Origin: Actinomycetota bacterium
Lineage (GTDB): Bacteria > Actinomycetota > Geothermincolia > Geothermincolales > RBG-13-55-18
Assembly: GCA_014360685.1 (NCBI GenBank)
Contig: JACIXB010000011.1
Span: forward strand, 259,261 to 323,260
DNA length: 64,000 bases
Direction of reading: 5' to 3'
Part shown: positions 6,425-60,497 of the stretch, in pieces
Layout: every line of letters starts with the position of its first letter
Position numbering within the stretch: position 1 is the stretch's first letter
The notes under the pieces: model-generated
The model's input: only the letters and a program-made list of their open reading frames with translations
Told to the model about the DNA's origin: nothing
The model's database searches: none
Made by a program: the position numbers and the translations under genes

Positions 6425-7495
6425 CTACAGGGAGGTGGCCTCCAGCTCGAGCACCCCTTCCGGGCTGAGCTCCCAGTCGACCGAGGACCGGCGCCCGGTG
6501 ACGGTTTCCAGGTAACCCTGCAGGAGACCGACGAGCATGAGGTGTAGGGCCGCGTTTTCCACCCGCGCCCGGAGCCGGTTCCCCTCCAGGTCCAGGGCGC
6601 GCAGGTTGCCCAGGCCGCGCAGGGCCAGCAGCTTTCGAAACTGCTCCTCGCTCTCGATCTCCCGCGCATTGTAGAAGCCGGACTTAACGAAGCGCCTTTG
6701 GGCTTCCACGATGGTACGCGGTATATCCTCGCCCAGCTCTTTTTCCAGCTCGTCGAAGACCGCTTCCTGGTAGGCGGGCCCGAACATGGCCAGGCGCCTT
6801 CCGGTTGTGGTGTCGGTGATGGTCCCCTCCTCCAGGTTCCACTTGAGGGCGGAGAGTCCCGCCGGCCCTCCGCAGGTCGCGCACCTCTCCAGCCCCACTT
6901 CCCCCTCGAGGAGGGGGTATTCCCGGAGTTCCAACCTCCCCTGGAACTGGGGTGGGTGTTCCGCGGGAAAGGCGTTGATCTCCACCTCGCTTTCCGAGAG
7001 GAGCCGGTATTCCACGTCGTTGTCCCGGCGGGTTACCGCTTCCACCGCCCCGGCAAGGTCCCCGCACCACAGGGGCACCGAGTAGGGGTTTCTCACACGC
7101 TCCCTGAGGTAGTCCTCTTGGTCCTGCTCGTACCGCCAGCCCACCAACCGGACATCACCGTAGCCCATGAGGCGGGCGATGTTGTTGTTGGCCTGGATAA
7201 GGAGGTTCATGTCGAACTCTTTTCGGGACACCATGTCCTTTACTTCCTCGGGCACAAGGCGGTCGATGTATTCCCGCGTTGCCCTGCGCTTGGTCTCGAT
7301 GACGATGCGTTCGATGGGCAAACCTATGATCTCCTCGATACCTCGGAAAAGGTTATCCAGGTTGGCGCTCTCCACGAGCACCAAGCGGTGCCTACGGTCC
7401 CCGCTCTGCACTATCACCCCGTTGTCCATCCAGGTGTGGTTGTCCGTGAACTGTCGCGGCACCCCGCATTGCGGGCAGAATTCCGTGCCCTCCAT
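6425..7495 (-). CDS. Unrecognised two-module zinc-ribbon protein, paralogue A
   Basis: Function unknown. The 356-residue protein appears to be soluble and consists of two related halves. Each half starts with a CxxC pair (CPQCG at residues 7-10, CATCGG at 205-208), followed by a segment with a conserved run such as IEEIIGLPIERIVIETKRR (residues 53-71) or LEKELGEDIPRTIVEAQRR in the second half, then a short glycine-rich turn, then a stretch ending near VPLWCGDLAGAVEAV or HLMLVGLLQGYLETV. The last stretch resembles the end of V4R-type small-molecule-binding domains, although their usual cysteines are missing. The start at 7495 has GGGAGGAG upstream. A clear paralogue lies at 22626-23702. A role in binding a hydrophobic ligand or metal is only a guess. 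Confidence 0.75.
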   Translation of the reverse strand: MEGTEFCPQCGVPRQFTDNHTWMDNGVIVQSGDRRHRLVLVESANLDNLFRGIEEIIGLPIERIVIETKRRATREYIDRLVPEEVKDMVSRKEFDMNLLIQANNNIARLMGYGDVRLVGWRYEQDQEDYLRERVRNPYSVPLWCGDLAGAVEAVTRRDNDVEYRLLSESEVEINAFPAEHPPQFQGRLELREYPLLEGEVGLERCATCGGPAGLSALKWNLEEGTITDTTTGRRLAMFGPAYQEAVFDELEKELGEDIPRTIVEAQRRFVKSGFYNAREIESEEQFRKLLALRGLGNLRALDLEGNRLRARVENAALHLMLVGLLQGYLETVTGRRSSVDWELSPEGVLELEATSL

Positions 7496-8325
7496 CACTC
7501 CTCCCTTCGCCGTCACTCCGAATTCATGGGCCTCAGAATAGATAAAAGGGAAGATAAGTTATAATACTCCGCTGCTTGGTCGCCGCAGGATCGGAATCCA
7601 CACATGGAAATATTTGTCAACATGCACCGCTACCCATTCGCCTCGTGCCGACGGGCCATTACATCCTTTTATACCATAACCGATGGGTCCGTGGCGTCGA
7701 AGTGAAGCATGAAAAATGGCGGGGCACGTCGGATGTGAAAAAAGCAGGGTCCGGTTGAGGGAAGAGAGGCCGAGAGCCGCGGGAGGGTCGAGGATGCGGA
7801 TGACTCCAGTGCGGCGCGTGCGGAACGAGTCAGGGTTCGCGAGCCGGCTTTAGAACACGGCGCCGGTTTCGGTATCCCCGCCTTCCCCCTCCGCGTGGGA
7901 TGAAAACCCGGTTTCCCGGCTGCTCTCGGGTAGCGATTGGGGTGGGGATGAATTTCCGAGAAGAGCGCGGGTGAGCGGGACCCTGGTCCTTACGGGTAGC
8001 CTTGGGGGTAAAGGCGGCCGCATGGCGGTGTGACGACCGTCGGGGTTGTACCGGGGTCCGGCGGCCCGATGGGAAGGGCCGAAGGGGCAGGAGGAGCGCC
8101 AGATCTACGGTACTCGGATGTCATGAATCTGGTATAATATCCCCACCCTGGTTGCACGGCCGGTAACTTTGACGGGGCCCGTGGCGGCGGGAGGCCTCTC
8201 CCCCGGGATACCCGGCCCAAGAAAGCGGAGGCAGCGGGTCTCGCGAGGGTCATGTCCGGGAAGGACATCCCGGTCACGGGTGTTTCGAGGTAAGTGTCGG
8301 AGAAGAGGAAAGCGAGGTAAGGAAC
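7496..8325. other. Long intergenic region with a candidate thiolase promoter
   Basis: About 830 bases between divergent genes. An AT-rich patch at 7540-7566 probably holds the promoter of the leftward zinc-ribbon gene (TATTAT read on the minus strand). A TATAAT hexamer at 8133-8138 may serve the rightward thiolase gene. The open frames in between have no family likeness and are not called. Confidence 0.45.
8133..8138 (+). promoter_or_regulatory. Candidate -10 element for thiolase gene
   Basis: A perfect TATAAT in GC-rich surroundings, about 190 bases before the thiolase start. No good -35 is visible at 17 bp, so the call rests on the -10 alone. Confidence 0.4.
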
Positions 8326-19193: not shown

Positions 19194-20299
19194 ACGCCGG
19201 GACGGCGGGGAATGGCCCGCGTCACACGGTCCTCCGGAGACCGGGTGCGCGGGACGGGGGTTTTGGGGAGGGCGACGAGGCGTTGAGGGTCATGGAGAGG
19301 GCGGCCGGAGTGGATGAGGGAAAGGCCGGCTTGACCGAGGGGAGCGCCGGGCAGGGAGAAAAGCCGGCGCAGCGGCCCGGGGTGAAGCCCCTTTACCTGG
19401 GGAGGAAGGATCGAATCGCGGAGGCGGCGGAGAAGGCGGCCAGGAGGGCCTTTCTCGCCGACCGCGTGGCCAGGTTGGGCATCTGGTCGCTTTCCGCGTT
19501 GGCTCTCTCGGTGGTGGCCCTGGTCATAGGGGTTATCCTCTGGAACGGGCTGGGCACGGCGCTTTCCCCCTCCTTCCTTTTCGGCAAACCGGAGGCCATG
19601 CGGGAAGGAGGGGGCATCTGGCCCATGGTGGTCTCCTCGTTTTACCTGGCCGCCCTCACCCTCCTCATGGTCATCCCCCTCGGCGTGGGGGCGGCCGTCT
19701 ACATGTCCGAATTCGCGGGGGAAGGCCGGCTGACCCGCCTGGTGCGGTTCGGGGCCGATTCCCTATCCGCGGTGCCCTCGGTGGTCTTCGGCATCTTCGG
19801 AATGGTGGTCTTCGTCATCTACCTGGACCTGGGCTATTCCCTTCTGGCCGGGGCGCTCACGCTGACCCTCCTGAACCTGCCCACGGTGATGCGTTCCGCG
19901 GAGGAGGCCGTAAGGAGCGTCCCGGTGTCTTACCGGGAAGCGGCCCTGGCCCTGGGCTGCACGAGGTGGGAGACGGTCAAGAGAGCGGTGCTGCCCGTGG
20001 CCATGCCCGGCATCACCACCGGGGCCATCCTCTGCGTGGGCCGGATCGTGGGGGAAAGCGCGGCGGTCATCTACACCGTGGGGCTCTTCGTACGCAAGGT
20101 ACCCTGGTCTCCCTTGAGACCGGCTGCGCCCATGGCTGCCAATATCTGGCACATGTACACCGAGGGGGCGCTGGTTCCGGACTGGTTCAGGGTGGCCAGC
20201 GGGGAGGCGGCCTTTCTCCTCCTCCTGGTCCTCACCCTCAACCTGGCGGCCAGGTGGGTGGCGGGCGCGGTGAGGAAGAGAATGGGTTATCGCGTTTGA
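19190..20299 (+). CDS. pstA: Phosphate ABC transporter permease PstA
   Basis: Permease partner of PstC, 369 residues. The C-terminal 275 residues hold six helices and the EAA loop (SYREAALALGCTRWETVKRAVLPVAMPGI), with GRIVGESAAVIY as in PstA. The first 95 residues are a hydrophilic, charged and glycine-rich extension rarely seen in PstA, which is usually about 280-300 residues; an internal start is possible but no stronger site stands out. ATG at 19190 overlaps pstC by four bases. The last 20 codons and the stop lie inside a 103-bp sequence that occurs three times in tandem, ending in the pstB start region. Confidence 0.92.
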   Translation: MNAGTAGNGPRHTVLRRPGARDGGFGEGDEALRVMERAAGVDEGKAGLTEGSAGQGEKPAQRPGVKPLYLGRKDRIAEAAEKAARRAFLADRVARLGIWSLSALALSVVALVIGVILWNGLGTALSPSFLFGKPEAMREGGGIWPMVVSSFYLAALTLLMVIPLGVGAAVYMSEFAGEGRLTRLVRFGADSLSAVPSVVFGIFGMVVFVIYLDLGYSLLAGALTLTLLNLPTVMRSAEEAVRSVPVSYREAALALGCTRWETVKRAVLPVAMPGITTGAILCVGRIVGESAAVIYTVGLFVRKVPWSPLRPAAPMAANIWHMYTEGALVPDWFRVASGEAAFLLLLVLTLNLAARWVAGAVRKRMGYRV

Positions 20300-20546
20300 G
20301 GTGATGTCCATGTCGGTCATCTCGTTCGTGTCGGGCAAGGTCAACCTGGCGGCCAGGTGGGTGGCGGGCGCGGTGAGGAAGAGAATGGGTTATCGCGTTT
20401 GAGGTGATGTCCATGTCGGTCATCTCGTTCGTGTCGGGCAAGGTCAACCTGGCGGCCAGGTGGGTGGCGGGCGCGGTGAGGAAGAGAATGGGTTATCGCG
20501 TTTGAGGTGATGTCCATGTCGGTCATCTCGTTCGTGTCGGGCAAGG
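20238..20546 (+). repeat. 103-bp tandem triplication across the pstA/pstB junction
   Basis: Three exact-looking copies start at 20238, 20341 and 20444. Each contains the last 20 codons of pstA, its TGA stop, GAGGTG, and the first 13 or so codons of pstB (ATGTCCATG at 20304, 20407 and 20510). Only copy 1 is joined to pstA and only copy 3 to pstB. In copies 1 and 2 the pstB start opens a 32-codon chimeric frame that ends in the pstA-derived TGA of the next copy. The repeat therefore leaves both full proteins intact. Confidence 0.95.
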
Positions 20547-21412
20547 TCAGGGGACGGCGACCGGGTTCCGTGGGGGCCGAGGGCGCCGCCCCCTCGCAGA
20601 ACAAGCGGGCAGGCGCGGAAAGCGAGGCCATTCCGGGCGAGGGCGCCAAATTCCGCTTGCGGGACGTGAGCCTCCGTTACGGGAACCGTCCGGTACTGGA
20701 AGGTATTACCATGGACATACCGGAGCGCAGGATCACGGCGGTGATCGGGCCTTCCGGCTGCGGGAAATCCTCCTTTCTCCGTTGCCTGAACCGCATGAAC
20801 GACCTGGTGGAGGGGTGCAGGCTGGAGGGGCTGGTCCTGCTGGACGGGGAGGATATCTACGCTCGCGAATACGACGTGACGGCGCTGCGAAGGAGGGTGG
20901 GGATGGTCTTTCAGAGGCCCAACCCCTTCCCCAAGACGGTATACGAGAACGTGGCCTTCGGACCGCGGATCTTCGGGATAAAGGATCGTGAAACCCTGGA
21001 CGGGATCGTGGAATTGAGCCTCAAGAGGGCGGCCTTGTGGGAGGAGGTCAAGGACAAGCTGAGGGAACCCGCCTTGGCCCTTTCCGGCGGGCAACAGCAG
21101 CGGCTGTGCATCGCGCGGGTTCTGGCGGTGGAACCGGAGGTCATCCTCCTCGACGAGCCGTGCTCGGCGCTCGACCCCATAGCCACCCAGCGCATTGAGG
21201 ACCTCCTCGCGGAGTTGAAGGAGAATTACACCATCGTCATCGTGACCCACAATATGCAACAGGCGGCCAGGGTGAGTGATTACACGGCCTTTTTCCTCAT
21301 CGAATCCCAGGGTGAACCGGGAAGGCTGGTGGAGTTCGGGGACACGGCCACCATCTTCACCGCTCCCGCCGACCCGAGGACGGAGAGGTATATAACGGGA
21401 AGGTTCGGTTGA
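20510..21412 (+). CDS. pstB: Phosphate ABC transporter ATP-binding protein PstB
   Basis: Cytoplasmic ATPase that powers the PstCA channel, 300 residues. Walker A is GPSGCGKSS, the ABC signature [15 protein letters not shown], Walker [14 protein letters not shown], and the H-loop [13 protein letters not shown]. The ABC domain proper begins near residue 45 ([16 protein letters not shown]); the first 45 residues are an extension, and its opening codons come from the third copy of the 103-bp repeat. GTG at 20507 and ATG at 20516 are other possible starts. GAGGTG precedes the start in each repeat copy. Confidence 0.94.
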
Positions 21413-22254: not shown

Positions 22255-22625
22255 AGCCACGCAAAGCGCTTGAATCGCGACCGGGTATTGCCCGGGATGG
22301 CGTCACCTCCCGGTAGAGGGGTCCCGAAGGAGCTCCCGGAGATCCCACGATACTACATGCGTCGAGGGCCTCGAGTCCCCTACGCCTGCTCATCAGCACT
22401 CCGCTCCCGCCTGGGCTTTGAACGGCCCTACGGGGCCGCCACGCGCCTCTCCTTGCTTGCGCCGTTCATTACCGGCAAATATAATTACCCCGCCGCCGCT
22501 TGGAACGAATGGAGAGGCACCGCGGATATCGGCTCGCCGGGGATCGGTTTTCAAAATTGCGCTTACCGGGAGCGGTCTTCCCGTTTCCGGGAGGAAGGGC
22601 GGGACCGGCGAGGAGGAGAAGGAAT
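22255..22625. other. Intergenic region, no gene seen
   Basis: About 370 bases between phoU and the next gene. An AT-rich patch near 22475-22490 (CAAATATAATTACC) may hold a promoter -10 (TATAAT at 22479) for the zinc-ribbon gene. No terminator is clear. Confidence 0.4.
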
Positions 22626-23702
22626 ATGCCGGATATGGAGACCTGTCCCCAGTGCGGGCTGCCCCTGTACATGAGCAGCCAACATGCCTGGTTGCCCAAC
22701 GGCGTCATCCAGGCCCGGCGGGAGAGCCGCCAGCGCCTGGTCCTCTTCGAATGCGGGAACCTCGATCCCCTCTTCGCCGGGATCTCGGAGCTGATCGGGG
22801 TCCCCATAGAGAGGCTGGTCATCGACGCTTCCCGGAGGTCCACGCGCGATTACATGCGGCACGTGGTCCCGGACGACGTGAAGGAAATGATCAGGAACCG
22901 GGAACTTGACCTCAAGCCGGTGTTCGACTCCACCTTTCTCATCTGGAGGGCCATGGGTTACGGGAAATTGAGCGTGGAGACGGTGAAGTTCGAGGGGAAA
23001 AGCGATGATTTCATCACCGTCCTGGCGGAAAGACCCTACTCCGTGCCCTTGGGGGTAGGCAATTTCGCCGGTTCCTTGGAGGCCATCCTGGAGAGGGAAC
23101 CGGGCGTGGAGTACCGGGAGGCCGGCCCCAGGATTTACCGCATAACCGTCCGCGAGTCGGAGAATCCGTCCGAGTTGAGGTCCCGTTTGCGCTGGAAGGG
23201 ATACGGGTTGGAATACAAGCAGGGCGACCTGGAATGGGAGCGGTGCCCGTCCTGCGACGCCCCCCTGGCGCTCCGGGAATTCAGGTGGGATCCGGACAGC
23301 GGTTCCATCCGCAGCACGCTGACCGGGCGCAGGATGGTCATGACCGGCCCTTCCATGATCGACCCCATCTTCGATGAGCTGGAGGAGGAACTGGGGGAGG
23401 CCATACCCCGCGTGGTGGTGGAAGCACAGAAACGGTTCGTTAAGTCGGGGTTTTTCGCCGTGAAGGAAGTGGTAAGCGAGGAGAACATGCGGGAGAAGCT
23501 GGCCGTGCGGGGCCTGGGGTACCTCCGGTACCTGAGGATGGGCAGGAAGGGCGTCCAGCTGAAGATGGAGAACGTGGCCCTTCCCCTGATGGGGGTGGGC
23601 TTGGCCCAGGGCCTCTTCGAGAAGGCCTTCCAGGTGGAAAGCGAAGCGGAATGGGAGTTCACCGGCGACGGGGACCTGCTGGTAAAGGTGACGCCCCGTT
23701 GA
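22626..23702 (+). CDS. Unrecognised two-module zinc-ribbon protein, paralogue B
   Basis: Function unknown; clearly related over its whole length to the protein at 6425-7495. The 358 residues form two halves. CPQCG at 7-10 and CPSCDAP at 207-210 start each half. LIGVPIERLVIDASRR in the first corresponds to LGEAIPRVVVEAQKR in the second. RPYSVPLGVGNFAGSLEAI corresponds to NVALPLMGVGLAQGLFEKA. The module end resembles V4R domains but lacks their cysteines. The start at 22626 is set by GAGGAGGAGAAGG. It lies between phoU and gltX with its own likely promoter, so neighbours do not explain its role. Confidence 0.75.
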   Translation: MPDMETCPQCGLPLYMSSQHAWLPNGVIQARRESRQRLVLFECGNLDPLFAGISELIGVPIERLVIDASRRSTRDYMRHVVPDDVKEMIRNRELDLKPVFDSTFLIWRAMGYGKLSVETVKFEGKSDDFITVLAERPYSVPLGVGNFAGSLEAILEREPGVEYREAGPRIYRITVRESENPSELRSRLRWKGYGLEYKQGDLEWERCPSCDAPLALREFRWDPDSGSIRSTLTGRRMVMTGPSMIDPIFDELEEELGEAIPRVVVEAQKRFVKSGFFAVKEVVSEENMREKLAVRGLGYLRYLRMGRKGVQLKMENVALPLMGVGLAQGLFEKAFQVESEAEWEFTGDGDLLVKVTPR

Positions 23703-25350: not shown

Positions 25351-25390
25351 TGTTTTATGACCCCCAGGAGTATAGGGATGATCCCGGAGG

Positions 25391-25664
25391 AGATCGCTTC
25401 GTCGCTCCGCTCCTCGCGATGACGGAGTAAGGCTCCTCGCGATGACGGTTTAAGGGCCGCTCCTGGCGATGACGAAAAAAGGGTCCTCGCGGTGACATTC
25501 CCTTTCCGGAGGAGATGGCTTCGCTTCGCTCGCCATGACGTTTGCCCGGGTTGCATCATGGCTAGGAGGCGCGCCATTACCTTTTATCCGTCATTGCTAG
25601 GAGGCGCGCCGTTCCCTTTTATACGTCATTGCGAGGAGGCGCTCATGCGCCGACGAAGCAATCT
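25391..25664. repeat. Inverted-repeat element, non-coding, MITE-like
   Basis: The left end (25391-25423) reads AGATCGCTTCGTCGC and CTCCTCGCGATGAC; the right end (25625-25664) reads GTCATTGCGAGGAG and CGACGAAGCAATCT, its inverted counterpart. In between, the CTCCTCGCGATGAC core recurs with changes three or four times in one direction and TCATTGCTAGGAGGCGCGCC twice in the other. Elements of this GTCATTGCGAGGAG type are widespread, dispersed and non-coding in many bacteria. No transposase is present. Confidence 0.75.
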
Positions 25665-49413: not shown

Positions 49414-50318
49414 TTTCACCCCCCAGGTCCGGATCCTCACCCCGGCGTCGGCGGCGGTATGTCCCGAAAATCGCAGCTCATGGAAGAAAGCGCGGATGAT
49501 GCGCGAGCAACGACGGAAGACGGCCCCTGTTTTTCCGCGATATCGGATACATCACTCCTCAGTTACATCACTTCCTCAAATATTAATTTTATTTATAATA
49601 ATGATAAATTTTTAAAATGAATAGCATTTTTTACCGTCGGCGTCAAGGCGCAAAAAGAGGGTGGGACTCGAAGCTCCCGGTTTGCAGAAGTTATGCCGGG
49701 TTACCGCGTGTCGTGCCGGAAAAAAACTTGACAAAACGAAAAACGTTGTGGTTTCTTCATATAAAGACCTAGGAGAGTGGATTATATTGATCGTATCTTA
49801 GGGCTCGACTGCGGGCCCGAGGGAAGTTTTGTCTTCTCTTCGTATTTCATTTCAAGGCGCGCCGATGGAAGTACGGACGAGGCTTGGAAGGCGCAAAAAC
49901 CGGTTCATAAAAGGGAGTTAGAATTTTTAACTGAATTGGTAAAAATTGGCAATTAAAACTTGGATCGGAAGAAGGGAGGGCTTCGCATAAAGTCGTTCGG
50001 GTAAGGCTGACGCGGTGAGAGGCGAACCCGTAACGAGGACACGGAAAAGCAAGCGGCTCCGCTCGGCGCAGGGCGGAAACAGGGAAGGTACGAAGCCCGG
50101 CAAGAGGAAAATCGGATGGAAAGCGTGCATTCCCGCACGGAGCGGGTTCATGGGTTGGTTTATATGCCCGGGGAGAGGCGGGTGACGGTTTACCGCCGTG
50201 CGATCTCAGGAACCCCCCACTTTCCTAGGTCGGCCCACCCTCTCCGGGCATTTTTTCATAAATGATGGGTTATTCCCTTGCCGTTGAGAGAAGGAGTAGT
50301 TCAGGAGGTGAAAGGTTA
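49414..50318. other. Long AT-richer intergenic region with hydrogenase leader
   Basis: About 900 bases between divergent genes, notably less GC-rich than the rest. 49560-49620 is very AT-rich and probably holds the yedE promoter. TTGACA at 49728-49733 is a good -35 for rightward transcription, but its -10 at 17 bp is poor; TATAAA at 49760 is too far. The right end holds the foldable leader RNA (50164-50256). No protein gene is recognised; a cis-acting or small RNA is possible. Confidence 0.55.
50164..50256 (+). ncRNA. Structured leader RNA with terminator-like stem upstream of hydrogenase
   Basis: ATGCCCGG (50164-50171) pairs with CCGGGCAT (50244-50251), and AGAG (50174-50177) with CTCT (50240-50243), enclosing two smaller hairpins: GGCGG/CCGCC (50177-50181 with 50193-50197) and AGGAA/TTCCT (50208-50212 with 50222-50226). 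A run of six T follows the closing stem directly. The whole lies 63 bases upstream of the hydrogenase start. The form suggests a riboswitch, attenuator or small RNA with intrinsic terminator; no known class was recognised. Confidence 0.55.
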
Positions 50319-51431
50319 GTGGAAAGAAAGGGTGTGACCAGGCGCCAGTTCCTCAAGTACGCCGGCGCCACCGCGGCTCTTCTCGGGTTGAGCGAGTCCC
50401 TCATCCCGCAGATCGCCCATGCCCTGGAGGAGCTTTCCTCCGGCAAGCCGCCGGTGCTCTGGATCCAGGGGCAGAACTGCACGGGATGCTCCGTCTCGTT
50501 CCTGAACACCAATTACCCCATGGCCGCGGAGATCGTGCTGGACAAGCTCTCCGTGCGCTACCATCCCACGGTGATGGCCGCGGCGGGGGACAAAGCCTTC
50601 GGCGTGCTGGAGGAGACGGCCAAGGAGCTGGCCGGCAAGTACGTGCTGGTGGTGGAGGGGCCGGTGCCCACCGCGGAGGGCGGAGAGTACTGTACCTTCG
50701 GCCTGGAGAAGGAGACGGCTTCATTCAACGGTTATCAGCGCCGCAAGGACAAGCCCATGACCGCCTGGATGGAGGAGCTGGTCCCCGGGGCGGCGGCGGT
50801 GGTGGCCTTGGGCAACTGCGCCTCTTTCGGCGGCATCCCCGCGGCCAACGCCTCGGTGACTGGGACCAAGCCGGTGCAGGAGATCGTCAAGGAGATCGCC
50901 AAGGACAAGCCGGTGATCAACATCGGCGGCTGCCCCGCCCATCCCGACTGGTTCGTGGGCACGGTCCTGGATTATCTCATCAACAAGAGGGTGCCCGATC
51001 TGGACAGGCACAACCGGCCCAAGATGTTCTTCGGAAAGCTCATCCACGAGAACTGCGAGCGGCGGGCGGCCTTCGACGCCGGCCTTTTCCTGGAGGACTG
51101 GAACGACGACAACCCGGATATGAAGCTCTGCCTCTTCAAGCTGGGCTGCAAGGGCCCGGTTACCTACGCCGACTGCCCCACCCGGCGCTGGAACTCCGGG
51201 GTCAACTGGTGCGTGGGGGCCAACGCTCCCTGCCACGGGTGCGCGGAGCCGGCCTTCTACAAGGACCTCTCCCCTCTCTACGAGCCCCTACCGGAGGTCC
51301 ATTTCGCCGGCCTCACCCCCATGGTGGATACCCTGGGATGGATCGGAGCGGCGGCCACCGCCGCGGGCATCGGGGCTCATTACCTGTACAAGCAACTGGG
51401 AAAGAAGGAGCCCGAGGGAGGTGAGTCCTGA
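50319..51431 (+). CDS. hyaA: NiFe hydrogenase small subunit, Tat-exported, group-1-type
   Basis: Carries the iron-sulfur relay of a membrane-bound uptake hydrogenase facing outside. The 370-residue protein begins with a twin-arginine signal (TRRQFLKYAGATAALLGL, RR at 8-9). Proximal-cluster cysteines are in NCTGCS (54 and 57), GNCASFGG and GGCPAHPDW. Medial and distal ligands lie in HENCERR, CLFKLGCKGP, NWCVG and CHGCAEP. A hydrophobic stretch near residues 340-360 (GWIGAAATAAGIGAHYLY) anchors the C-terminus. The GTG start at 50319 follows AGGAGGTGAAAGG. It opens a tightly packed operon with large subunit, membrane protein, rnfC and rnfD. Confidence 0.95.
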   Translation: MERKGVTRRQFLKYAGATAALLGLSESLIPQIAHALEELSSGKPPVLWIQGQNCTGCSVSFLNTNYPMAAEIVLDKLSVRYHPTVMAAAGDKAFGVLEETAKELAGKYVLVVEGPVPTAEGGEYCTFGLEKETASFNGYQRRKDKPMTAWMEELVPGAAAVVALGNCASFGGIPAANASVTGTKPVQEIVKEIAKDKPVINIGGCPAHPDWFVGTVLDYLINKRVPDLDRHNRPKMFFGKLIHENCERRAAFDAGLFLEDWNDDNPDMKLCLFKLGCKGPVTYADCPTRRWNSGVNWCVGANAPCHGCAEPAFYKDLSPLYEPLPEVHFAGLTPMVDTLGWIGAAATAAGIGAHYLYKQLGKKEPEGGES

Positions 51432-53026
51432 TGGCCCAACTCATCAGCATAGACCCGGTAACCCGCATCGAGGGTCACCTCCGTATCGACGTGGAGGTGG
51501 AGAACGGCGTGGTCAAGGACGCCTGGTCCTCGGGGACCATGTTCCGCGGCATCGAGATGCTCCTCAAGGGCAAGCACCCCTTCGACGCCCAGCAGGTGAC
51601 GGAGCGCATCTGCGGCGTGTGCCCCCTGGTGCACGGGACCGCCGCCTCCTACAACCTGGACGACGCCCTGGGCGTGGATCTCCCGGACAATGCCCGCATC
51701 ATCCGCAACCTGTGCCTGGGCGCCAACTTCATCCAGTCCCACATCCTGCACTTCTACCACCTGGCCGCCCTGGACTACGTGGACGTCACCGCGGTGGCCA
51801 AGTACGCCGGGAACGATCCCGCCCTGGCGGCCCTGCGGGACAAGGTAGCGGTCCTGGCCAAGGCGGGGGACGTCTACCCCTTCCTGCCCCGCTACGAGTC
51901 CGACGACTACGTAAGCGACCCCGAGCTGGCGGCCGTCCTGGTGAGCCATTACGTGCAGGCCCTGGAGATGCGCAAGAAGGCCCAGGAGATGCTGTCCATC
52001 TTCTACGGCCGCATGCCCAGCTTCGTGGGGACGGTGCCCGGCGGGGTGACCGTGCATCCCACGGTCTCCAATATCGCCGCCTTCCGGGCCCGCCTCGACG
52101 AGCTGCGGGTGTGGATCGACAACGTATACGTCCAGGACATCCTCACCGTGGCCGGTGTATCCGCCTACGCCCCCTTCCTCACCGCGGGGGATTCCGGCGG
52201 CAACTACCTGGCCTACGGCGGGTTCGACCAGGACTCCAAGGGCGCGGAGAAGTTCCTGCCCCGGGGTTACATCACCGGGAACAACGTGGCCGCCGTCGGG
52301 GAGTTCGATGAAGCCAAGCTCACCGAGTCGGTAAAGCACTCCTGGTACAAGGACGAGTGCGAGTGGCTGCATCCCAAGGAGGGGAAGACCGAACCCGACG
52401 TGCACAAGGAGGGAGCCTACTCCTTCCTCAAGGCCCCGCGTTACGACGGGAAGCCCATGGAGGTGGGCCCCATGGCCCGCATGCTGGTGCTGGCCGGACT
52501 GGAGCTGGGGGGCAAGAGGAAGGAGAAGAAGCTCATGCCTCTCATCGAGAAGCTCGGACTGGCCTCCGCCGTGGACGCCTGTGTGCAGGCCGGCAAGTTC
52601 GGCATCCTGCCGCGACATGCCATGCGCGCCCTGGAGTGCAAGCTCCTGGCCGACGAGATGGACAAGTGGCTGGACGAGCTCAAGCCGGGCGAGAAGATAT
52701 GGGACAAGAAGGACATCCCGGGAGAGTCCTACGGCCGGGGCCTGGTGGAAGGGCCGCGGGGCGCCCTGGGGCACTGGATCCACATAAAGGGTAAGGTCAT
52801 CGAGAACTACCAGTGCATCGTGCCCACCACCTGGAACGCGGCTCCGCGGGATAAGAACGGCAACCGGGGTCCCATCGAGACCGCGCTCGTCGGATTGCCG
52901 GTCCCCGACCCGGAGAACCCCATCAACGTGGTGCGCTGCGTGAGGTCCTTCGACCCCTGCCTGGCCTGCGCCATCCATGTCATCCACCCCGAGCACAACG
53001 GCGTCAAGGAATTCCGCGTGGTCTGA
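51431..53026 (+). CDS. hyaB: NiFe hydrogenase large subunit
   Basis: Holds the NiFe(CN)2CO site that splits hydrogen. The 531-residue product has both nickel-ligand motifs: RICGVCPLVHG (Cys61, Cys64) and DPCLACAIH (Cys510, Cys513, His516). A 15-residue tail after His516 is the expected peptide removed by the maturation protease encoded at 56363. SIDPVTRIEGHLRI at the N-terminus is typical. It overlaps the small subunit gene by one base (TGATG), so they are translationally coupled. The protein has no signal of its own and would be co-exported with the small subunit. Confidence 0.96.
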   Translation: MAQLISIDPVTRIEGHLRIDVEVENGVVKDAWSSGTMFRGIEMLLKGKHPFDAQQVTERICGVCPLVHGTAASYNLDDALGVDLPDNARIIRNLCLGANFIQSHILHFYHLAALDYVDVTAVAKYAGNDPALAALRDKVAVLAKAGDVYPFLPRYESDDYVSDPELAAVLVSHYVQALEMRKKAQEMLSIFYGRMPSFVGTVPGGVTVHPTVSNIAAFRARLDELRVWIDNVYVQDILTVAGVSAYAPFLTAGDSGGNYLAYGGFDQDSKGAEKFLPRGYITGNNVAAVGEFDEAKLTESVKHSWYKDECEWLHPKEGKTEPDVHKEGAYSFLKAPRYDGKPMEVGPMARMLVLAGLELGGKRKEKKLMPLIEKLGLASAVDACVQAGKFGILPRHAMRALECKLLADEMDKWLDELKPGEKIWDKKDIPGESYGRGLVEGPRGALGHWIHIKGKVIENYQCIVPTTWNAAPRDKNGNRGPIETALVGLPVPDPENPINVVRCVRSFDPCLACAIHVIHPEHNGVKEFRVV

Positions 53027-53042
53027 GGAAGGGGGGGTACCC

Positions 53043-53543
53043 ATGAAGGAGAAGATCAAGGTACCCGGCCCGGCGAAGGCCATGTACGCCGTCTATCTAA
53101 GCGCGCTGGCGGTGTCCGTCTACGTCGGGTTCAACAACTTCCACCCCTTCCTCTCCGGGTGGAGGTATCCCTGGCAGATGAGCATCGCCAAGAACCTGGG
53201 GCTGGCCTCCATATGGGTAGTGGCCCTCACCGCCGGGGTGTATCTCTATTACAGCACCCTGGGCCGGCCCAAGGGATGGAACGAGCCGTTGGGGATCTTC
53301 CGCGCCGTGCTGGCCCTCCTGGCCATCTGGTACTTCCTAGTGAGCTTCGCCGTTTATGACCCCAACGGCTGGCTGCGCGGCCTGGTGGACGGGTTGGGCG
53401 GGATCGCCGGCACCTGGAAGGTGTACTCCGTGTTCCTGTGGATAGTGCTCCTCCTGAACGTCATCTACGTGTACGCCCGCTGGGCCAAGTCGGAGCGCTT
53501 CCCCCGCCTGCGGGCGGCTGGCGGCGGAGAGGGGGTGAAGTGA
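53043..53543 (+). CDS. Four-helix membrane protein of the hydrogenase operon
   Basis: A 166-residue integral membrane protein with four clear helices, at about residues 13-30, 50-68, 86-105 and 128-148. In classical uptake hydrogenases this position is filled by a cytochrome b with several haem-ligating histidines in its helices. Here only one histidine is present (NNFHPF), in a loop, so bis-histidine haem binding is not possible. It may instead anchor the hydrogenase or join it to the RnfC/RnfD module. ATG at 53043 is 16 bases after the large subunit stop; its stop overlaps the rnfC start. I do not recognise its family. Confidence 0.82.
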   Translation: MKEKIKVPGPAKAMYAVYLSALAVSVYVGFNNFHPFLSGWRYPWQMSIAKNLGLASIWVVALTAGVYLYYSTLGRPKGWNEPLGIFRAVLALLAIWYFLVSFAVYDPNGWLRGLVDGLGGIAGTWKVYSVFLWIVLLLNVIYVYARWAKSERFPRLRAAGGGEGVK

Positions 53544-54868
53544 TGTCCGGGAAGGCCACCTACAAGACCTTCAAGGGAGGCATCCATCCCCCCTACCACA
53601 AGGAGTTGGCCTCGGGGAAGGCCATCCGCCCGGCGCCGGTGCCCGCGGAGGTGTTCATCCCCCTCCAGCAGCATATCGGCGCTCCCAACGAGCCCCTGGT
53701 CAACCCCGGGGACCGGGTGGAGCTGGGGCAGAAGATCGGGTCCAGCGAGGCCTTCGTCTCCGCTCCGGTGCACGCCTCGGTAGCGGGCACGGTGAAGGAG
53801 ATAGCCGAGGTCACTGGTTTCACCGGGGCCAAGGTGAAGTGCGTGGTGATCACCCCGGATGCGGAGCAGCCGGGGTTCGCCCGAAAGGACCGGGACATCA
53901 CCGCCCTCTCCGACCAGGAGGTCAGGGACATCGCCCGCGAGGCGGGCCTGGTGGGAATGGGGGGAGCCGCCTTCCCCACCCACGTCAAGCTAACCCCGCC
54001 CAAGGACAAGCCGGTGGACACGGTGATCATCAACGCCTGCGAGTGCGAGCCCTTCCTCACCTGCGACCACCGGGTCATGCTGGAGAGGCCCCATGACCTG
54101 GTGCAGGGGTTGAAGCTGCTCATGCGGGCGGTGAACGCCAAGCGGGGCATAATCGGCATCGAGGCCAACAAGATGGACGCCGTGGACGCCGTGCGCGGGG
54201 CGGCCAAGGGCGAAGCGGGCATCGAGGTGGACATCCTGGAGGTCAAGTACCCGGAGGGCGCGGAGAAGATGCTCATCTACGCCCTCACCGGCAGGAAGGT
54301 GCCCCCGGGTAAGCTCCCCTCCGAGGTGGGCTGCCTGGTCCAGAACGTGGGCACGGCGGTGGCCCTCTACGAGGCCTGCGCCTGGGGCAAGCCCCTCTAC
54401 GAACGGGTGCTCACCGTCACCGGGCAGGGGATCAAGGAGCCGGCCAACCTGCTGGCCCGGGTGGGGACGCCCATCTCCACCCTCATCGAGGCCTGCGGGG
54501 GCTTCGTCGGCCGGCCGGGGAAGGTGATCATGGGCGGCCCCATGACCGGTTGGGCCCAACCGGACACCTCGGCCCCGGTGGTCAAGGGGACCTCGGGCAT
54601 CGTGGTCCTCACCCCCGACCTGGTGGACGTGGGGACCGAGGAGGAGTGCGTGCGTTGCGGGAAGTGCGTGGACGTCTGCCCCATGTTCCTCCTCCCCAAC
54701 TTCATCGTCCAGGCGGTGAAGAAGGGACAGTGGGACCGGGCGGAGATGTGGGGGGCCCTGGACTGCTTCGAGTGCGGATGCTGCTCCTTCACCTGTCCCG
54801 CTTACATCCCGCACGTGGACTACGTGCGCAAGGCGAAGGCCGAGATCGCGGCCTTGAAGAGGAGATAG
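53543..54868 (+). CDS. rnfC: RnfC-like NADH/ferredoxin-linked electron transfer subunit
   Basis: A 441-residue cytoplasmic protein related to Rnf subunit C and to the Nqo1/NuoF flavoprotein core. FKGGIHPPYHKE starts it as in RnfC. AGLVGMGGAAFPTHVKL and NACECEPFLTCDHRVM form the FMN/NADH-binding part. A C-terminal ferredoxin domain has two four-cysteine clusters, ECVRCGKCVDVCP and CFECGCCSFTCP. It overlaps the previous gene by one base (TGATG). In a normal Rnf complex it accepts electrons from NADH or gives them up. Here it follows hydrogenase genes without RnfA, B, E or G. Confidence 0.92.
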   Translation: MSGKATYKTFKGGIHPPYHKELASGKAIRPAPVPAEVFIPLQQHIGAPNEPLVNPGDRVELGQKIGSSEAFVSAPVHASVAGTVKEIAEVTGFTGAKVKCVVITPDAEQPGFARKDRDITALSDQEVRDIAREAGLVGMGGAAFPTHVKLTPPKDKPVDTVIINACECEPFLTCDHRVMLERPHDLVQGLKLLMRAVNAKRGIIGIEANKMDAVDAVRGAAKGEAGIEVDILEVKYPEGAEKMLIYALTGRKVPPGKLPSEVGCLVQNVGTAVALYEACAWGKPLYERVLTVTGQGIKEPANLLARVGTPISTLIEACGGFVGRPGKVIMGGPMTGWAQPDTSAPVVKGTSGIVVLTPDLVDVGTEEECVRCGKCVDVCPMFLLPNFIVQAVKKGQWDRAEMWGALDCFECGCCSFTCPAYIPHVDYVRKAKAEIAALKRR

Positions 54869-54874
54869 GGGGTG

Positions 54875-56023
54875 ATGAAAGTGGCGGACAAGATGCTGGT
54901 CACCGTCTCTCCTCACCTGCACAAGAAGGACGAGACCATTCAGCGCGCCATGAAGGACGTGCTCATCGCGCTGACCCCGGCCGCGGTCTGGGCCCTGGTG
55001 GTCTTCGGGTTCAACGTGGTGTACATCCTGGCCGTGAGCTGCATAACCGCGGCCCTCTCCGAGGTGGTCATGCGCAAGATCATGAGGCGCAAGCCCACCC
55101 TCACGGATTACAGCGCCATGGTGACCGCGGTGCTCTTCGCCTTTCTCCTCCCGCCGACCACCCCGCTGTGGGTGGTGGCCATCGGGGCCTTCCTGGCGGT
55201 GGGAATCGGCAAGGAGCTCTTCGGGGGCTTGGGTAAGAACATCTTCAACCCGGCCATCTTCGCCCGGGTGTTGCTCTGGTTCTCGCCCCTGGCCGTGTAC
55301 ACCACCAAGTTCGTGAAGCCCTTCTTCTGGAAGGCTTCCGGGTTCTTCACCCCCATCGCCACCAGCATCAACGAGGGGGCGGTGGGCAGGGCGGTCTACA
55401 AGACCATGGCCGGAAACCCGGTGGCCGACCTGACCACAGCTGCGACTCCGCTTTCCCTGCTCAAGTCGGGGAAGTGGCTCCCGGACATGGTGGCCGGCCC
55501 CACCCCGGTGGGCGCCACCTGGTTGAACTCAGGAGGCAAGCCTTCCTTTTGGTCCCTTTTCATCGGGGCCAAGAGCGGGTGCATCGGAGAGGTGTGCATC
55601 CTGGCCCTGCTCATCGGGGCGGCTTATCTCCTCTGGCGCCGCACCATCGACTGGCGCATCCCGGTGGGGATTATCGGCACCTTCTTCCTGCTCACCCTGG
55701 TCACCTGGTACCACCCCATATACAACCTCTTCTCCGGGGGGTTGTTCCTGGGAGCCTTCTTCATGGCCACCGACTGGGTGACCAGCCCGGTGACCAGGCG
55801 GGGGAAGTGGATCTTCGCCGTGGGTATCGGGGCCACCGTGTTCATCATGCGGTTCTGGAGCCTGAGGCCGGAGGGCGTGGCCATAGCCATCTTCCTGTGG
55901 AACATCGGCACCCTGGTCATAGACCGCTACATCGCGGTGCCCAAGTTCGGGGAGGTGGGAGCCAAGGCCTTCAACCGGCTCCCCGTCCTGCCTGAACCGG
56001 CCCCGGAGCCGGTCAAGAAATAA
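54875..56023 (+). CDS. rnfD: RnfD-like membrane flavoprotein subunit
   Basis: Integral membrane protein of 382 residues with about nine helices, family RnfD/NqrB. The region DLTTAATPLSLLK near residue 190 matches the site at which RnfD/NqrB carry FMN covalently on a threonine (consensus S/T-[GA]-A-T). VSPHLHKKDETIQRAMKDVL at the N-terminus and GGLGKNIFNPAIFARVLL also fit. RnfD is part of the ion-pumping route in Rnf. It follows rnfC by six bases; GTG at 54872 is an alternative start. A strong terminator follows, closing the operon. Confidence 0.92.
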   Translation: MKVADKMLVTVSPHLHKKDETIQRAMKDVLIALTPAAVWALVVFGFNVVYILAVSCITAALSEVVMRKIMRRKPTLTDYSAMVTAVLFAFLLPPTTPLWVVAIGAFLAVGIGKELFGGLGKNIFNPAIFARVLLWFSPLAVYTTKFVKPFFWKASGFFTPIATSINEGAVGRAVYKTMAGNPVADLTTAATPLSLLKSGKWLPDMVAGPTPVGATWLNSGGKPSFWSLFIGAKSGCIGEVCILALLIGAAYLLWRRTIDWRIPVGIIGTFFLLTLVTWYHPIYNLFSGGLFLGAFFMATDWVTSPVTRRGKWIFAVGIGATVFIMRFWSLRPEGVAIAIFLWNIGTLVIDRYIAVPKFGEVGAKAFNRLPVLPEPAPEPVKK

Positions 56024-56060
56024 AAAAAGGAACCCCCGGTTCACCCGGGGGTTCTTTTTT
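56024..56060 (+). terminator. Intrinsic terminator of hydrogenase-rnf operon
   Basis: GAACCCCCG and CGGGGGTTC arms with a short loop, preceded by a run of A and followed by seven T, directly after the rnfD stop. The A and T runs extend the stem. Confidence 0.95.
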
Positions 56061-56362
56061 TATGGGGTCAGGTCTTGAAATTTGATACCCCGGTGGGTAT
56101 ATCCGGTCGGGTTTTATCCCGGCGAGGGCTGACGCTGGTCTGTCCGGAGCGGCTTACCCGCGGGCAGTCTACGGGCCCCGGGATTCGTGGTCCTGGGGGT
56201 TTCCATGCGGCTTGGCCAGCCCGGAAGGTAAGCGTTTGCAGGCGGATATGGATCGCGTTCCCGGCCGTGGAAGATCGTGCGATAACCCTTGGTGGGAAAA
56301 AATCGCCCCATTAGCCCTTCGACGGCCGGAAATCTACAATGGGATGGAATTTGGGAGGCGCC
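56061..56362. other. Intergenic region between rnfD terminator and hyaD
   Basis: About 300 bases holding the REP-like element copy. No clear promoter and no gene is seen. Confidence 0.4.
56064..56091 (+). repeat. REP-like dispersed element, copy 3
   Basis: Identical over 28 bp to 373-400 and related to 43403-43430. It lies just beyond the operon terminator. Here, unlike in the other two copies, it is not joined to a stop codon. Confidence 0.78.
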
Positions 56363-56842
56363 GTGTCTCGTTACGTGGTCATCGGGCTAGGTAATCTCCT
56401 TCACGGGGATGACGGCCTGGGCGTCCATGCCGTGCGGCGCCTCAGGGAGCTCAAGGAGGGGCTTCCCGCGGACGTGGAACTCTTGGAGGGCGGTGTCCTG
56501 GGATTGGACCTCCTCCCCTACCTGGAGGGGAAGGAGAAGGCGGTCTTCATCGACGCCGTGGACGCCGGCGAGGAGCCCGGGGCGGTGTTCCGCTTTTCTC
56601 CCCACGAGGTGCTCCGCGCCGGAACCCCGCCCCCCGTTTCCCTTCACGACCTGGGGCTCTACGAGCTGGTTGGCGCCGCTAAATTGCTGGAGCAGTGTCC
56701 CCGCGAGATAATAATCATCGCCGTGCAGGTCAAGAGCCTGGACCTGGGGGAAGGCCTTTCCGAGGAAGTGGAAGCGGCGCTGCCCGCCGTGTGCCGCCTG
56801 GTGGAGGAGGAGTTGAGGGGTGAGGCGCGGCCTCCCTCCTAA
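56363..56842 (+). CDS. hyaD: NiFe hydrogenase maturation protease (HyaD/HupD-like)
   Basis: Cuts the C-terminal tail of the large subunit once nickel is in place. The 159-residue protein has GLGNLLHGDDGLGVHAV near the N-terminus, FIDAVDAGEEPG, and SLHDLGL, which carry the three metal ligands (acidic, acidic, histidine) of this family. The GTG start at 56363 follows GGGAGGCG; an in-frame ATG at 56339 has no site. It lies 340 bases after rnfD and before hypF. Confidence 0.92.
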   Translation: MSRYVVIGLGNLLHGDDGLGVHAVRRLRELKEGLPADVELLEGGVLGLDLLPYLEGKEKAVFIDAVDAGEEPGAVFRFSPHEVLRAGTPPPVSLHDLGLYELVGAAKLLEQCPREIIIIAVQVKSLDLGEGLSEEVEAALPAVCRLVEEELRGEARPPS

Positions 56843-57030
56843 CGCATATCTTTATCGCCCCGCCTCCGACGGTTAACGAGAGCCGCGATTCCGGGAGGGT
56901 AAAACGGGTACCCGGAGCCGGATGCGGTGGGTGGGAAGGGGTCCCAGCCCGGGCTGATGCGGGAGGGGGATATCCCGCCTGCTGATACCCCGCCTGCCGT
57001 GGTGGTCCGGGCCACCCGGGGGTATGAGGA

Positions 57031-57130
57031 ACGGCGGTGGGATCGAATGGAAGGCGCGCCTCCCGGAGGCGTCCCAACCCCTGGAAAACCCGCTTGCGGA
57101 AAGGAAAACGGCGGTGGGATGGAATGGAAG
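57031..57130. repeat. 23-bp direct repeat duplicating the hypF start region
   Basis: ACGGCGGTGGGAT(C/G)GAATGG and AAG occur at 57031-57053 and 57108-57130 with one difference. The second copy contains the hypF ATG (57124); the first has an ATG at 57047 opening a 32-codon frame that ends just inside hypF in another frame. Confidence 0.7.
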
Positions 57131-59640
57131 ACGGCAGGGTGCTGAGCATCGAGGTGAGGGGGATCGTCCAGGGGGTAGGTTTCCGGCCCTTTATCTACCG
57201 GCTGGCCCGCGAGCACCGGCTGGCGGGATGGGTGGAGAACACCCCCGAGGGGGCACGGATCCTGGCCCGCGGCGGAAGCCGTGAACTGGAGGCCTTCTTG
57301 GAAGATATTACCAGGAAGGCGCCTCCCGCGGCGGTTATCGAGGAGGTGCGCACCGCGGAGGTGGAAGGACCGGGAGGCGCCGACCTCGCCGCCGGGGGAT
57401 TTCGCATCCGCGAGAGCTCCCGCGCGGGTGAGAAGACAGCCCTGGTATCCCCGGACCTGGCCACCTGTCCCGACTGCCGGCGGGAATTGTTCGACCCCCG
57501 GGACCGACGCTACCGCTACCCCTTCATCAACTGCACCAACTGCGGTCCCCGTTTCACCATCATCGCCGGCATCCCCTACGACCGCCCCCTGACCTCCATG
57601 GCCAAGTTCGCCATGTGTCCGGAATGCCAACGGGAGTACAACGACCCCGCCGACCGCCGCTACCATGCCCAGCCCAACGCCTGCCCGGCCTGCGGCCCCC
57701 GTCTCTGGCTGGAGGACGACAAGGGGGAGGTGGTTCCCGGCGACCCCGTCATCCAGGCGGCCCGTGCCCTGCGGGAGGGGAAGATAGTGGCCCTGAAGGG
57801 GCTGGGAGGTTTCCAGCTGGCCTGCGACGCCACCAGCGACGAGGCCGTAGACCGCCTGCGGGAGCGCAAGCGCCGCTACGCCAAGCCCCTGGCGGTCATG
57901 GTGGGAGGCCTGGAGGAAGCGGGGAAGTATTGCCGGGTGAGCGAGGAGGAGATGGAGCTCCTGGCCTCGCCTCGGGCCCCCATCGTGCTGCTCCCGGAGA
58001 AGGAGGACTCCCCTCTCTCGCGGCAGGTGGCGCCCGGCCTGAGGAACCAGGGCCTCTTCCTTCCCTACACCCCCATGCACCACCTCCTCCTGGCGGAGGC
58101 GGGAATCCCCCTGGTGATGACCAGCGGTAACGTGAGCGAGGAGCCCATCGCCAAGGAAAACGAGGAGGCGCGTCGCCGTCTGGCGGGGATCGCCGATTAC
58201 TTCCTTTTACACGACCGGGACATCCTGGTGAGATACGACGATTCGGTGACCTCCGTCCTCGAGGGGCGCGAATATATCCTGCGGCGGGCGCGCGGTTATG
58301 CCCCGTACCCGGTGGTCCTGGCCCGGGAAAGCCGGGTGGAGGTCCTCGCCGTGGGGGCGGAGCTCAAGAACACCTTCTGTTTCCTCCGCGGAAGGCACGC
58401 CTTTTTGAGCCAGCACATAGGGGACCTGGACAACGCGGAGACCCTGCGCCACTTCGAGGAGGCCTTGGAGTCCATGCGGTGCCTGTTCTCCCTTCGGCCG
58501 GAGGTGGTGGCCCACGACCTGCACCCGGATTACCTGTCCACCCAGCTGGCCGCGGATTTCGGCCTTCCCCGCGTTGCCGTGCAGCACCATCACGCCCACA
58601 TCGCGAGCTGCCTGGCGGACAACGGGGAGAGCGGCAGGGTGATCGGCGTATCCTGGGACGGCACGGGCTACGGCACGGACGGCACGGTGTGGGGCGGGGA
58701 GTTCCTCCTCTGTGACGAGGCGGATTTCGAGCGCGCCGGGCACCTTTACGCCGTCCCCATGCCCGGGGGGGAGGTCTGTGTCCGGGAACTGGACCGCATG
58801 GCCTTCGGGGTACTGTGGGAAGCCTGCGGCGGCGAGGAGGCGTCGGTTTTAGAAATATATTCCAGGACCTTCGCGGGGGCTGAGGCCGGCGATGAGGGCG
58901 GCACCGAGGGCGGCGGTTGGCGGCCCAGCGCCGCCTCTCCCCCGGGGGGGACGGTCCCCGATGGGGCTCGTCGCCGGGCGGCTACGGCCGCATCCCACGG
59001 GTCCCGGCCTGGGAACAACCGAGGGGCGGAGGCGGTGGGCCGGGATGCCGATCCCGTGAGGACGGATGGGGGAGACAGGGCCGCCGCCCTGGCGGCCATG
59101 GTCAGGGGAGGCTTCAACACGCCCCGCACCTCCAGCGCCGGACGCCTCTTCGATGCCGTGGCCGCCCTCCTGGGCTTGAGGACTCGCGCTTTCTACGAGG
59201 GCCAGGCGGCCTGCGAGCTGGAGGCCCTGGCCTCCACGGCGACCCCCTACCTGCGGGATAGGGCCTATCCAGTGGATATCCGGGAAGGAGAGCGCTCCCT
59301 GGTCTGGGATACCAGGTCCCTGGTCCTCGCCGTCCTGGAGGACATGCGCCGCGGCTCCGAACCGCCGGCCGTCGCCGCCCGGTTTCACGCCGCCCTGGCC
59401 AGGGGCATGGTGGAGGTGTGCCGCATCCTCAGGGAGGGATCGGGCATCACCCGGGTGGCCCTGAGCGGAGGCGTTTTCCAGAACCGCCTGCTCACCCCGC
59501 TGGCGGCGGAACTCCTCGAGGAAGAGAGCTTCCGGTGTCTGCTGCACCGCAGGGTGCCCTGCAACGACGGCGGCATCTCCCTGGGCCAGGCGGTGGCGGC
59601 GGCGCGGCGCCGGGAGAGATTGGAGGGCATGGATGATTAA
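57124..59640 (+). CDS. hypF: Carbamoyltransferase HypF
   Basis: Makes the cyanide ligands of the NiFe site from carbamoyl phosphate, with HypE. Domains in order: acylphosphatase (VRGIVQGVGFRPFIYRLA), two zinc-finger pairs (CPDCRREL...CTNCGPRF; CPECQREY...CPACGP), YrdC-like (KGLGGFQLACDAT) and the Kae1-like C-terminal part (HHHAHIASCLAD, VSWDGTGYGTDG, ALSGGVFQNRLL). At 838 residues it is longer than the usual 750-780, owing to a low-complexity insert of about 65 residues (roughly 585-650, rich in G, A, R, P). The start at 57124 could instead be GTG 57139. Confidence 0.95.
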   Translation: MEDGRVLSIEVRGIVQGVGFRPFIYRLAREHRLAGWVENTPEGARILARGGSRELEAFLEDITRKAPPAAVIEEVRTAEVEGPGGADLAAGGFRIRESSRAGEKTALVSPDLATCPDCRRELFDPRDRRYRYPFINCTNCGPRFTIIAGIPYDRPLTSMAKFAMCPECQREYNDPADRRYHAQPNACPACGPRLWLEDDKGEVVPGDPVIQAARALREGKIVALKGLGGFQLACDATSDEAVDRLRERKRRYAKPLAVMVGGLEEAGKYCRVSEEEMELLASPRAPIVLLPEKEDSPLSRQVAPGLRNQGLFLPYTPMHHLLLAEAGIPLVMTSGNVSEEPIAKENEEARRRLAGIADYFLLHDRDILVRYDDSVTSVLEGREYILRRARGYAPYPVVLARESRVEVLAVGAELKNTFCFLRGRHAFLSQHIGDLDNAETLRHFEEALESMRCLFSLRPEVVAHDLHPDYLSTQLAADFGLPRVAVQHHHAHIASCLADNGESGRVIGVSWDGTGYGTDGTVWGGEFLLCDEADFERAGHLYAVPMPGGEVCVRELDRMAFGVLWEACGGEEASVLEIYSRTFAGAEAGDEGGTEGGGWRPSAASPPGGTVPDGARRRAATAASHGSRPGNNRGAEAVGRDADPVRTDGGDRAAALAAMVRGGFNTPRTSSAGRLFDAVAALLGLRTRAFYEGQAACELEALASTATPYLRDRAYPVDIREGERSLVWDTRSLVLAVLEDMRRGSEPPAVAARFHAALARGMVEVCRILREGSGITRVALSGGVFQNRLLTPLAAELLEEESFRCLLHRRVPCNDGGISLGQAVAAARRRERLEGMDD

Positions 59641-60248
59641 CTCCGGGACGGCGGGGATGGCGGCCGCCCCCATGCTTGCGCCGCTTAGCGGGGGCGAGGG
59701 CGAGGATGCGGGGCGTGAGTCGGTACCACGCGGATAAGGGATGGAGGCACGTTGCGAGGGGACCGGTGGGGAAAAGCGGAAGAACGGTTATGGTTATAAT
59801 ATCTCCGTCACCTGCCGGACCTTTCCGGGACCATAGACGATAACGGCCGGTGCCGGGAACGGAAAGCCCTTTCGCCGGACGTTTTTCACGAAAGGAAAGC
59901 GAGCGGATCCGGGGACCCTCGCGGAACGGGGAGGAACCAGCCGATCCCAGGGAGGAGGACAACCCGGCCGAACCGTGACTCCGGCGGTGGTGAGACCCGG
60001 GAAACGTGTCGTGCGAGAGGGTTTGCGTTTGCTTGACTGCGATCGCCCCGTGACGGGACCGGCCCCTAACGGAGGCGGGGAATGGAGGCCGTCCCCCGGT
60101 GCGGCCATCCAATAAAGGTCGGTCATGGAAGGGACGGGGCTCTTGGACGGGTGGAGGTGGATTCATCCCGGTAGGTGGTGTACGCCTGCTTTGATGTGGA
60201 CCCGGGCAGGCGAACGAAGGGTCTTGAGCGACAACGGGAGGACGAAGG
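59641..60248. other. Intergenic region upstream of hypC
   Basis: About 610 bases. TATAAT at 59795-59800 may start a hypCDE transcript. No gene is recognised; hypA and hypB are not present here. Confidence 0.45.
59795..59800 (+). promoter_or_regulatory. Candidate -10 element for hypCDE
   Basis: TATAAT in an AT-rich patch about 450 bases before hypC. No -35 is clear, and the leader would be long. Confidence 0.35.
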
Positions 60249-60482
60249 ATGTGCCTGGCCATACCCGCTGAGGTTGTGGAGCTACGGGAAAACGAAACGG
60301 CGCTGGTGGAGATAGGCGGGGTCCGCAAGGTGGTGAGCCTCATGCTCATGGACGGCGTGGAGGCCGGAGATTACGTGCTGGTCCATGCCGGGTTCGCCAT
60401 CGAGAGGGTGGACCGCGAGGAGGCGGAGAGGACGCTGGCCGTCCTGGAGGAGGCCGCCGAGTACGGACCGCTGTATGAGTAG
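60249..60482 (+). CDS. hypC: Hydrogenase maturation chaperone HypC
   Basis: A 77-residue chaperone that holds the Fe(CN)2CO unit with HypD and brings it to the large subunit. It has the hallmark MCLAIPAEVVE, where Cys2 becomes N-terminal after methionine removal, and the later GDYVLVHAGFAIERVD with the conserved histidine. An ACGAAGG... site precedes the ATG. hypD follows 15 bases downstream. Confidence 0.96.
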   Translation: MCLAIPAEVVELRENETALVEIGGVRKVVSLMLMDGVEAGDYVLVHAGFAIERVDREEAERTLAVLEEAAEYGPLYE

Positions 60483-60497
60483 AGGAAAGAGGGCGGG

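Follow-up and report, generated by a model that had tools for sequence, protein, structure and literature searches.

The protein encoded at positions 22626–23702 of the 64,000-nucleotide stretch of DNA analysed here (the window) is almost certainly a tandem duplication of a single module of about 160–180 residues, for which a fold can be predicted; the duplication arose once, and the resulting family is confined, within the sampled phylum, to one class, in which it has multiplied. We refer to this protein as paralogue B. Its reading frame starts with ATG, and a ribosome-binding site (GGAGGA, 22612–22617) is located 8 bp upstream. A second member, paralogue A, occupies an open reading frame on the minus strand (6425–7516) with a probable ATG start at 7495. 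The preliminary description of this DNA had attributed the same duplicated layout to both proteins; paralogue A does match paralogue B in layout and is 43% identical to it over its length. The features of the two genes are summarized in Table 1.

Table 1. Coordinates of paralogues A and B and of their parts in the window
Feature	Position	Strand	Basis
Paralogue A gene, architecture as in B	6425..7495	-	43% identity to B, full length
Paralogue A, N module	6950..7495	-	Alignments
Paralogue A, C module	6428..6901	-	Alignment
Paralogue B gene, double V4R-like protein	22626..23702	+	358 aa plus stop; homologues in own genome and class-wide; AlphaFold2 pLDDT 90.1
Paralogue B, N module, residues 1–182	22626..23171	+	Modelled alone, pLDDT 90.8; Foldseek PoxR/MopR/DmpR, E 1.7e-7
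Paralogue B, N knuckle CPQCG, residues 7–11	22644..22658	+	C7 and C10 invariant (55 aligned members)
Paralogue B, GYG motif, residues 111–113	22956..22964	+	G111 and G113 invariant, 55/55; counterpart of GGWG of V4R proteins
Paralogue B, GxxxG in last N-module helix, G145–G149	23058..23072	+	Conserved across N modules; matches helix-5 glycine pair of V4R/Bet3 (PMC2253512)
Paralogue B, linker, residues 183–200	23172..23225	+	pLDDT falls to 55–80 around residues 181–200
Paralogue B, C module, residues 201–358	23226..23699	+	Profile match with N module, 155 columns; secondary-structure order nearly equal
Paralogue B, C knuckle CPSCD, residues 207–211	23244..23258	+	C207 and C210 invariant, 55/55
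Paralogue B, GLG motif, residues 296–298	23511..23519	+	Invariant; counterpart of residues 111–113
Paralogue B, GxxxG in last C-module helix, G325–G329	23598..23612	+	>90% conserved

The internal duplication of this gene, first proposed in the preliminary description, is borne out by BLASTP, profile alignment, shuffled controls and a tree of the modules. Residues 1–200 of paralogue B match residues 201–358 with E=1e-8 over 71 aa (BLASTP), and the motifs originally quoted are found at the residues assigned to them. Alignment of the halves across homologues had been suggested as a check; N-half and C-half profiles from 55 full-length homologues align along the entire module, over 155 columns (hhalign probability 99.3, P=1.6e-20); the score is 126.4, and none of 200 column shuffles exceeds 21.6. 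The second of the alignments proposed earlier, SVPLGVGNFAGSLEAI with ALPLMGVGLAQGLFEKA, agrees with the profile alignment, in which G145/G149 fall on G325/G329. When only N halves are used to build the profile, it recovers the C halves within the same reading frames of other genomes. Both knuckle cysteines, one tryptophan and the two glycines of the GxG motif are invariant in a joint alignment of 110 half-modules, in which an arginine, an RR pair, the GxxxG motif and a glutamate are strongly conserved. In the tree of half-modules, 55 N modules separate from 55 C modules with a support of 0.96; because the 110 modules part so cleanly, we conclude that the duplication was a single, early event that preceded the radiation of the family. 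The modules are in tandem in every full-length member seen. A search of seven genomes for single-module ancestors yielded no convincing candidate among the matches listed, the short frames there resembling contig ends or broken copies.

Each module carries one CxxC knuckle. The earlier suggestion of a zinc ribbon per module holds to this extent, but neither module contains a complete four-ligand ribbon. Of 178 unique full-length members, 176 have all four knuckle cysteines, and the other two each lack a single one. Zinc normally takes four ligands, for which the two cysteines of one module are insufficient; we therefore infer that the two knuckles share one C4 site, a link that would hold the modules to each other like a staple. 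Direct coupling analysis detected no inter-module signal above chance around the knuckles, where it has no power because these columns barely vary. The strongest of the 27,984 inter-module couplings, L40–M237, joins strand 37–42 to its duplicate and is stable in subsamples; it is a single pair, with neighbouring pairs on the same diagonal silent, and kinship of the sequences may contribute to it. The same strand is complete in the AlphaFold2 model of both modules and mostly lost when the N module is modelled in isolation. This difference, together with the L40–M237 coupling, suggests that the modules are tightly packed as a covalent pseudo-dimer.

The AlphaFold2 model of the two-module protein (55-row alignment) has a mean pLDDT of 90.1 and a pTM of 0.87, and the isolated N module was predicted with a pLDDT of 90.8. 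In each half the predicted order of elements is knuckle, strands, helices, two strands, the GxxxG helix and two strands, the halves being equal except for a helix (residues 83–90) that is present in the N half and absent from the C half. The top PDB matches of the N module in Foldseek are the phenol-sensor domains of PoxR, MopR and DmpR (E 1.7e-7, TM 0.63/0.60, 185 columns); these XylR_N+V4R sensor domains cover all 182 residues of the module. They are followed by H-NOX, MJ1460 (a V4R protein; 2oso), YslB and TRAPP subunits. The two-module model retrieves the same superfamily, with H-NOX ranking first. By prediction, each module thus consists of a CxxC knuckle followed by the alpha/beta fold of the XylR_N-V4R/H-NOX/TRAPP superfamily. 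V4R and H-NOX, two of the folds with which a structural comparison had been recommended, are among these matches; nothing listed as DcmR or MEDS turned up in the Pfam scan of paralogues A and B or in the two structure searches. Sequence searches of the PDB yielded no meaningful match, ferritin and rubrerythrin being at chance level with E values of about 0.1.

These predicted structures give good support to the reading of the modules as V4R-like at the level of fold; that reading does not extend to membership of the Pfam V4R family (PF02830). Paralogues A and B have no match to PF02830 at E up to 10, and PF02830 is not among the 25 most frequent Pfam families in 55 members; it does match other genes in 11 of 29 genomes of the class. 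Against genuine V4R proteins of the same class, the N-half profile scores 34.6 (shuffled maximum 23.8) and the C-half profile 29.1 (shuffled maximum 25.7) in hhalign; the alignments are collinear, end at the GxxxG helix and are weak, with probabilities of 50 (N) and 21 (C). Podar and colleagues described a glycine pair in helix 5 of V4R and Bet3 (PMC2253512). The two glycines of the last helix (helix 5) of our modules are present in 96 and 101 of the 110 modules, respectively; the glycine pair of V4R helix 2 is absent from the 110, in which the equivalent helix reads EAxRR. The V4R cysteines around the last helix and strand are likewise absent from the 178 members, in agreement with the preliminary description, and cysteine exceeds 30% only in the four knuckle columns. 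Considering the similar fold, the lack of a PF02830 match and the absence of both the V4R cysteines and the helix-2 pair, we call the modules V4R-like in fold and do not assign them to PF02830. Two adjacent genes for genuine V4R proteins (PF02830) occur outside the window (G000:C3:169763-169942 and 170561-170737). Such adjacent pairs are present in all four searched genomes of the genus, as separate genes in contrast to the fused modules of the duplicated family.

The family is present in all 31 genomes of the class (Ca. Solincola/Geothermincola), with 2–52 matches each, counts that may include broken or split copies, and in none of the 366 other Actinomycetota genomes searched. A further search with two peptide patterns, covering bacteria and archaea with one genome for each species, revealed no relatives elsewhere and excludes close relatives, not distant ones. 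Named relatives belong to Ca. Solincola, Ca. Geothermincola and further Actinomycetota MAGs; two genomes with loci of the family were deposited as Acidimicrobium ferrooxidans FI88_64_18 and Actinomycetes bacterium nzgw108. The source genome, which is 80% complete, contains 14 matching places, 12 of which are full length. Members of the family also occur in tandem or as broken copies. Truncated or broken copies are found in the same genome at L017:7849-8499 and L018:68-637, and copies split into two frames (L042:8754-9847 and L064:3713-4767) are likely to be pseudogenes or sequencing errors.

The tree contains orthologous groups that are common to several genera, and each group retains its own gene neighbours, from which we conclude that the copies are old and specialized. 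In each of the seven loci examined, gltX is downstream of the gene of the paralogue B group, with a second family copy in between in three, and phoU is on the other side of that gene in three of the seven. A thiolase gene and a flippase gene flank paralogue A; a third group has a gene for a B12-binding radical SAM protein on one side and a gene for a MazG-like protein on the other, and a fourth faces a gene for a LuxR-type response regulator. By plain counts, B12-radical SAM, GltX and LuxR regulators are the commonest neighbours, and each of them owes its frequency mainly to a single orthologous group. No partner gene or theme common to all groups was found among the neighbours scanned, which differ completely from group to group and name no ligand.

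Further features were observed in the window. Between what are probably the pstA and pstB genes, a 103-bp unit is present as three identical copies in tandem (20238–20549), which may be a real repeat or an assembly artefact. Short imperfect repeats (CTCCTCGCGATGAC... and TCATGGCTAGGAGGCGCGCC...) with a REP-like look are clustered at 25384–25625, between gltX and a cysE-like gene. Translations read by eye indicate an apparent NiFe-hydrogenase cluster with maturation genes at 50262–62856, including a small subunit with a Tat signal, a large subunit with the motif RIEGHLR and Hyp-like proteins.

The general view of V4R domains is that they bind hydrophobic ligands and signal in cis or in trans (PMC2253512). 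We propose a mechanism that, taken as a whole, we consider equally likely to be right or wrong: the two modules would pack as a covalent pseudo-dimer whose knuckles jointly bind one structural zinc (C4), and each module would accommodate a small ligand, probably hydrophobic, in the pocket used by the phenol sensors. Pfam scans detected no catalytic or output domain. Since the protein lacks a DNA-binding, ATPase or enzymatic domain, it would be a soluble receptor, carrier or adaptor that acts in trans, and the ligand or partner may be specific to each orthologous group. Extended to the class, this suggests, as a tentative picture in which we place less trust, a repertoire of receptors specific to the class, in which each genome would encode dozens of paralogous, intramolecular V4R-like pseudo-dimers clamped by zinc, each with its own small molecule and partner and with no fused output domain.

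The main rival explanation, which we regard as rather doubtful, dispenses with a regulatory ligand and treats the modules as a protein–protein scaffold like that of TRAPP Bet3/TPC6, the copies being adaptors with different partners. The structural matches include TPC6 and Bet3, which are dimers in their complexes, with TM values reaching 0.60 on the target, and, apart from the positions of the knuckle cysteines, arginine and glutamate, no histidine or typical catalytic residue reaches at least 50% conservation in the 110 modules, which is consistent with a scaffold. However, the N module most closely resembles phenol sensors whose structures contain a ligand, with an E-value about four orders of magnitude better than that of TRAPP, and no partner gene is conserved across the groups.

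DNA binding and haem binding are both less likely than a TRAPP-like scaffold. If the CxxC knuckles were zinc fingers acting on DNA or RNA, with the V4R-like parts sensing a ligand, the proteins would be nucleic-acid-binding regulators, as known V4R domains often are parts of transcription regulators. The knuckles do match Pfam zinc-ribbon and zinc-finger models weakly, but in paralogues A and B all of these matches are below the Pfam cut-offs and span the CxxC knuckle only; with just two cysteines per module and no conserved basic patch beside the knuckles, such a role is improbable. Still less probable is an H-NOX-like protein that carries or senses haem or a corrinoid, a reading to which the first rank of H-NOX structures for the two-module model and the B12-dependent radical SAM gene adjoining one orthologous group lend some weight. 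The latter link is confined to that group, the TM score to H-NOX is about 0.4, below that of PoxR/MopR for the N module, and no histidine column reaches 50% in the 110 modules, so that no conserved proximal haem ligand is present.

H-NOX proteins belong to the same fold superfamily (E about 3e-4), whereas the duplicated family lacks their conserved haem histidine and resembles them with a TM of only about 0.4. The TRAPP subunits Bet3 and TPC6/Trs33 also have the same fold (TM 0.5–0.6, E 1.5e-3); they are subunits of a eukaryotic tethering complex and work as dimers, which a tandem would mimic in one chain. V4R proteins (PF02830, COG1719; MJ1460, 2oso, E 6e-4) share with the family the fold, the order of motifs, including GxG before the sheet and GxxxG in the last helix, and a distant profile similarity, but not the tandem arrangement, and the family in turn has no PF02830 match, V4R cysteines or helix-2 glycine pair. 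With the sensors of PoxR, MopR and DmpR (XylR_N, PF06505, plus V4R, PF02830), the whole N module can be aligned at 11–14% identity, a likeness of fold only. Those proteins also contain an AAA+ sigma54-activator and an HTH domain; the duplicated protein has neither, as there is no Pfam match and its 358 residues are filled by the two modules, and it differs further in having two modules per chain, an N-terminal CxxC knuckle and no V4R cysteines. The fold itself has been described before; apparently unreported in the open-access literature are the arrangement in tandem, the CxxC knuckle, the lack of an output domain and the multiplication throughout the class.

The TRAPP vesicle-tethering subunits, which function as dimers, have been proposed to descend from V4R as their prokaryotic ancestor, and a bacterial lineage that fuses and multiplies V4R-like domains offers a natural experiment on how a fold gains partners and ligands. 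The family has no name in the curated libraries searched and, judging from copy number and genome size, would be the reason why roughly 1% of the genes in these uncultured bacteria are nameless. In 2008, a single archaeon with seven V4R proteins was described as having unusually many (PMC2253512), compared with up to about fifty two-module proteins per genome here.
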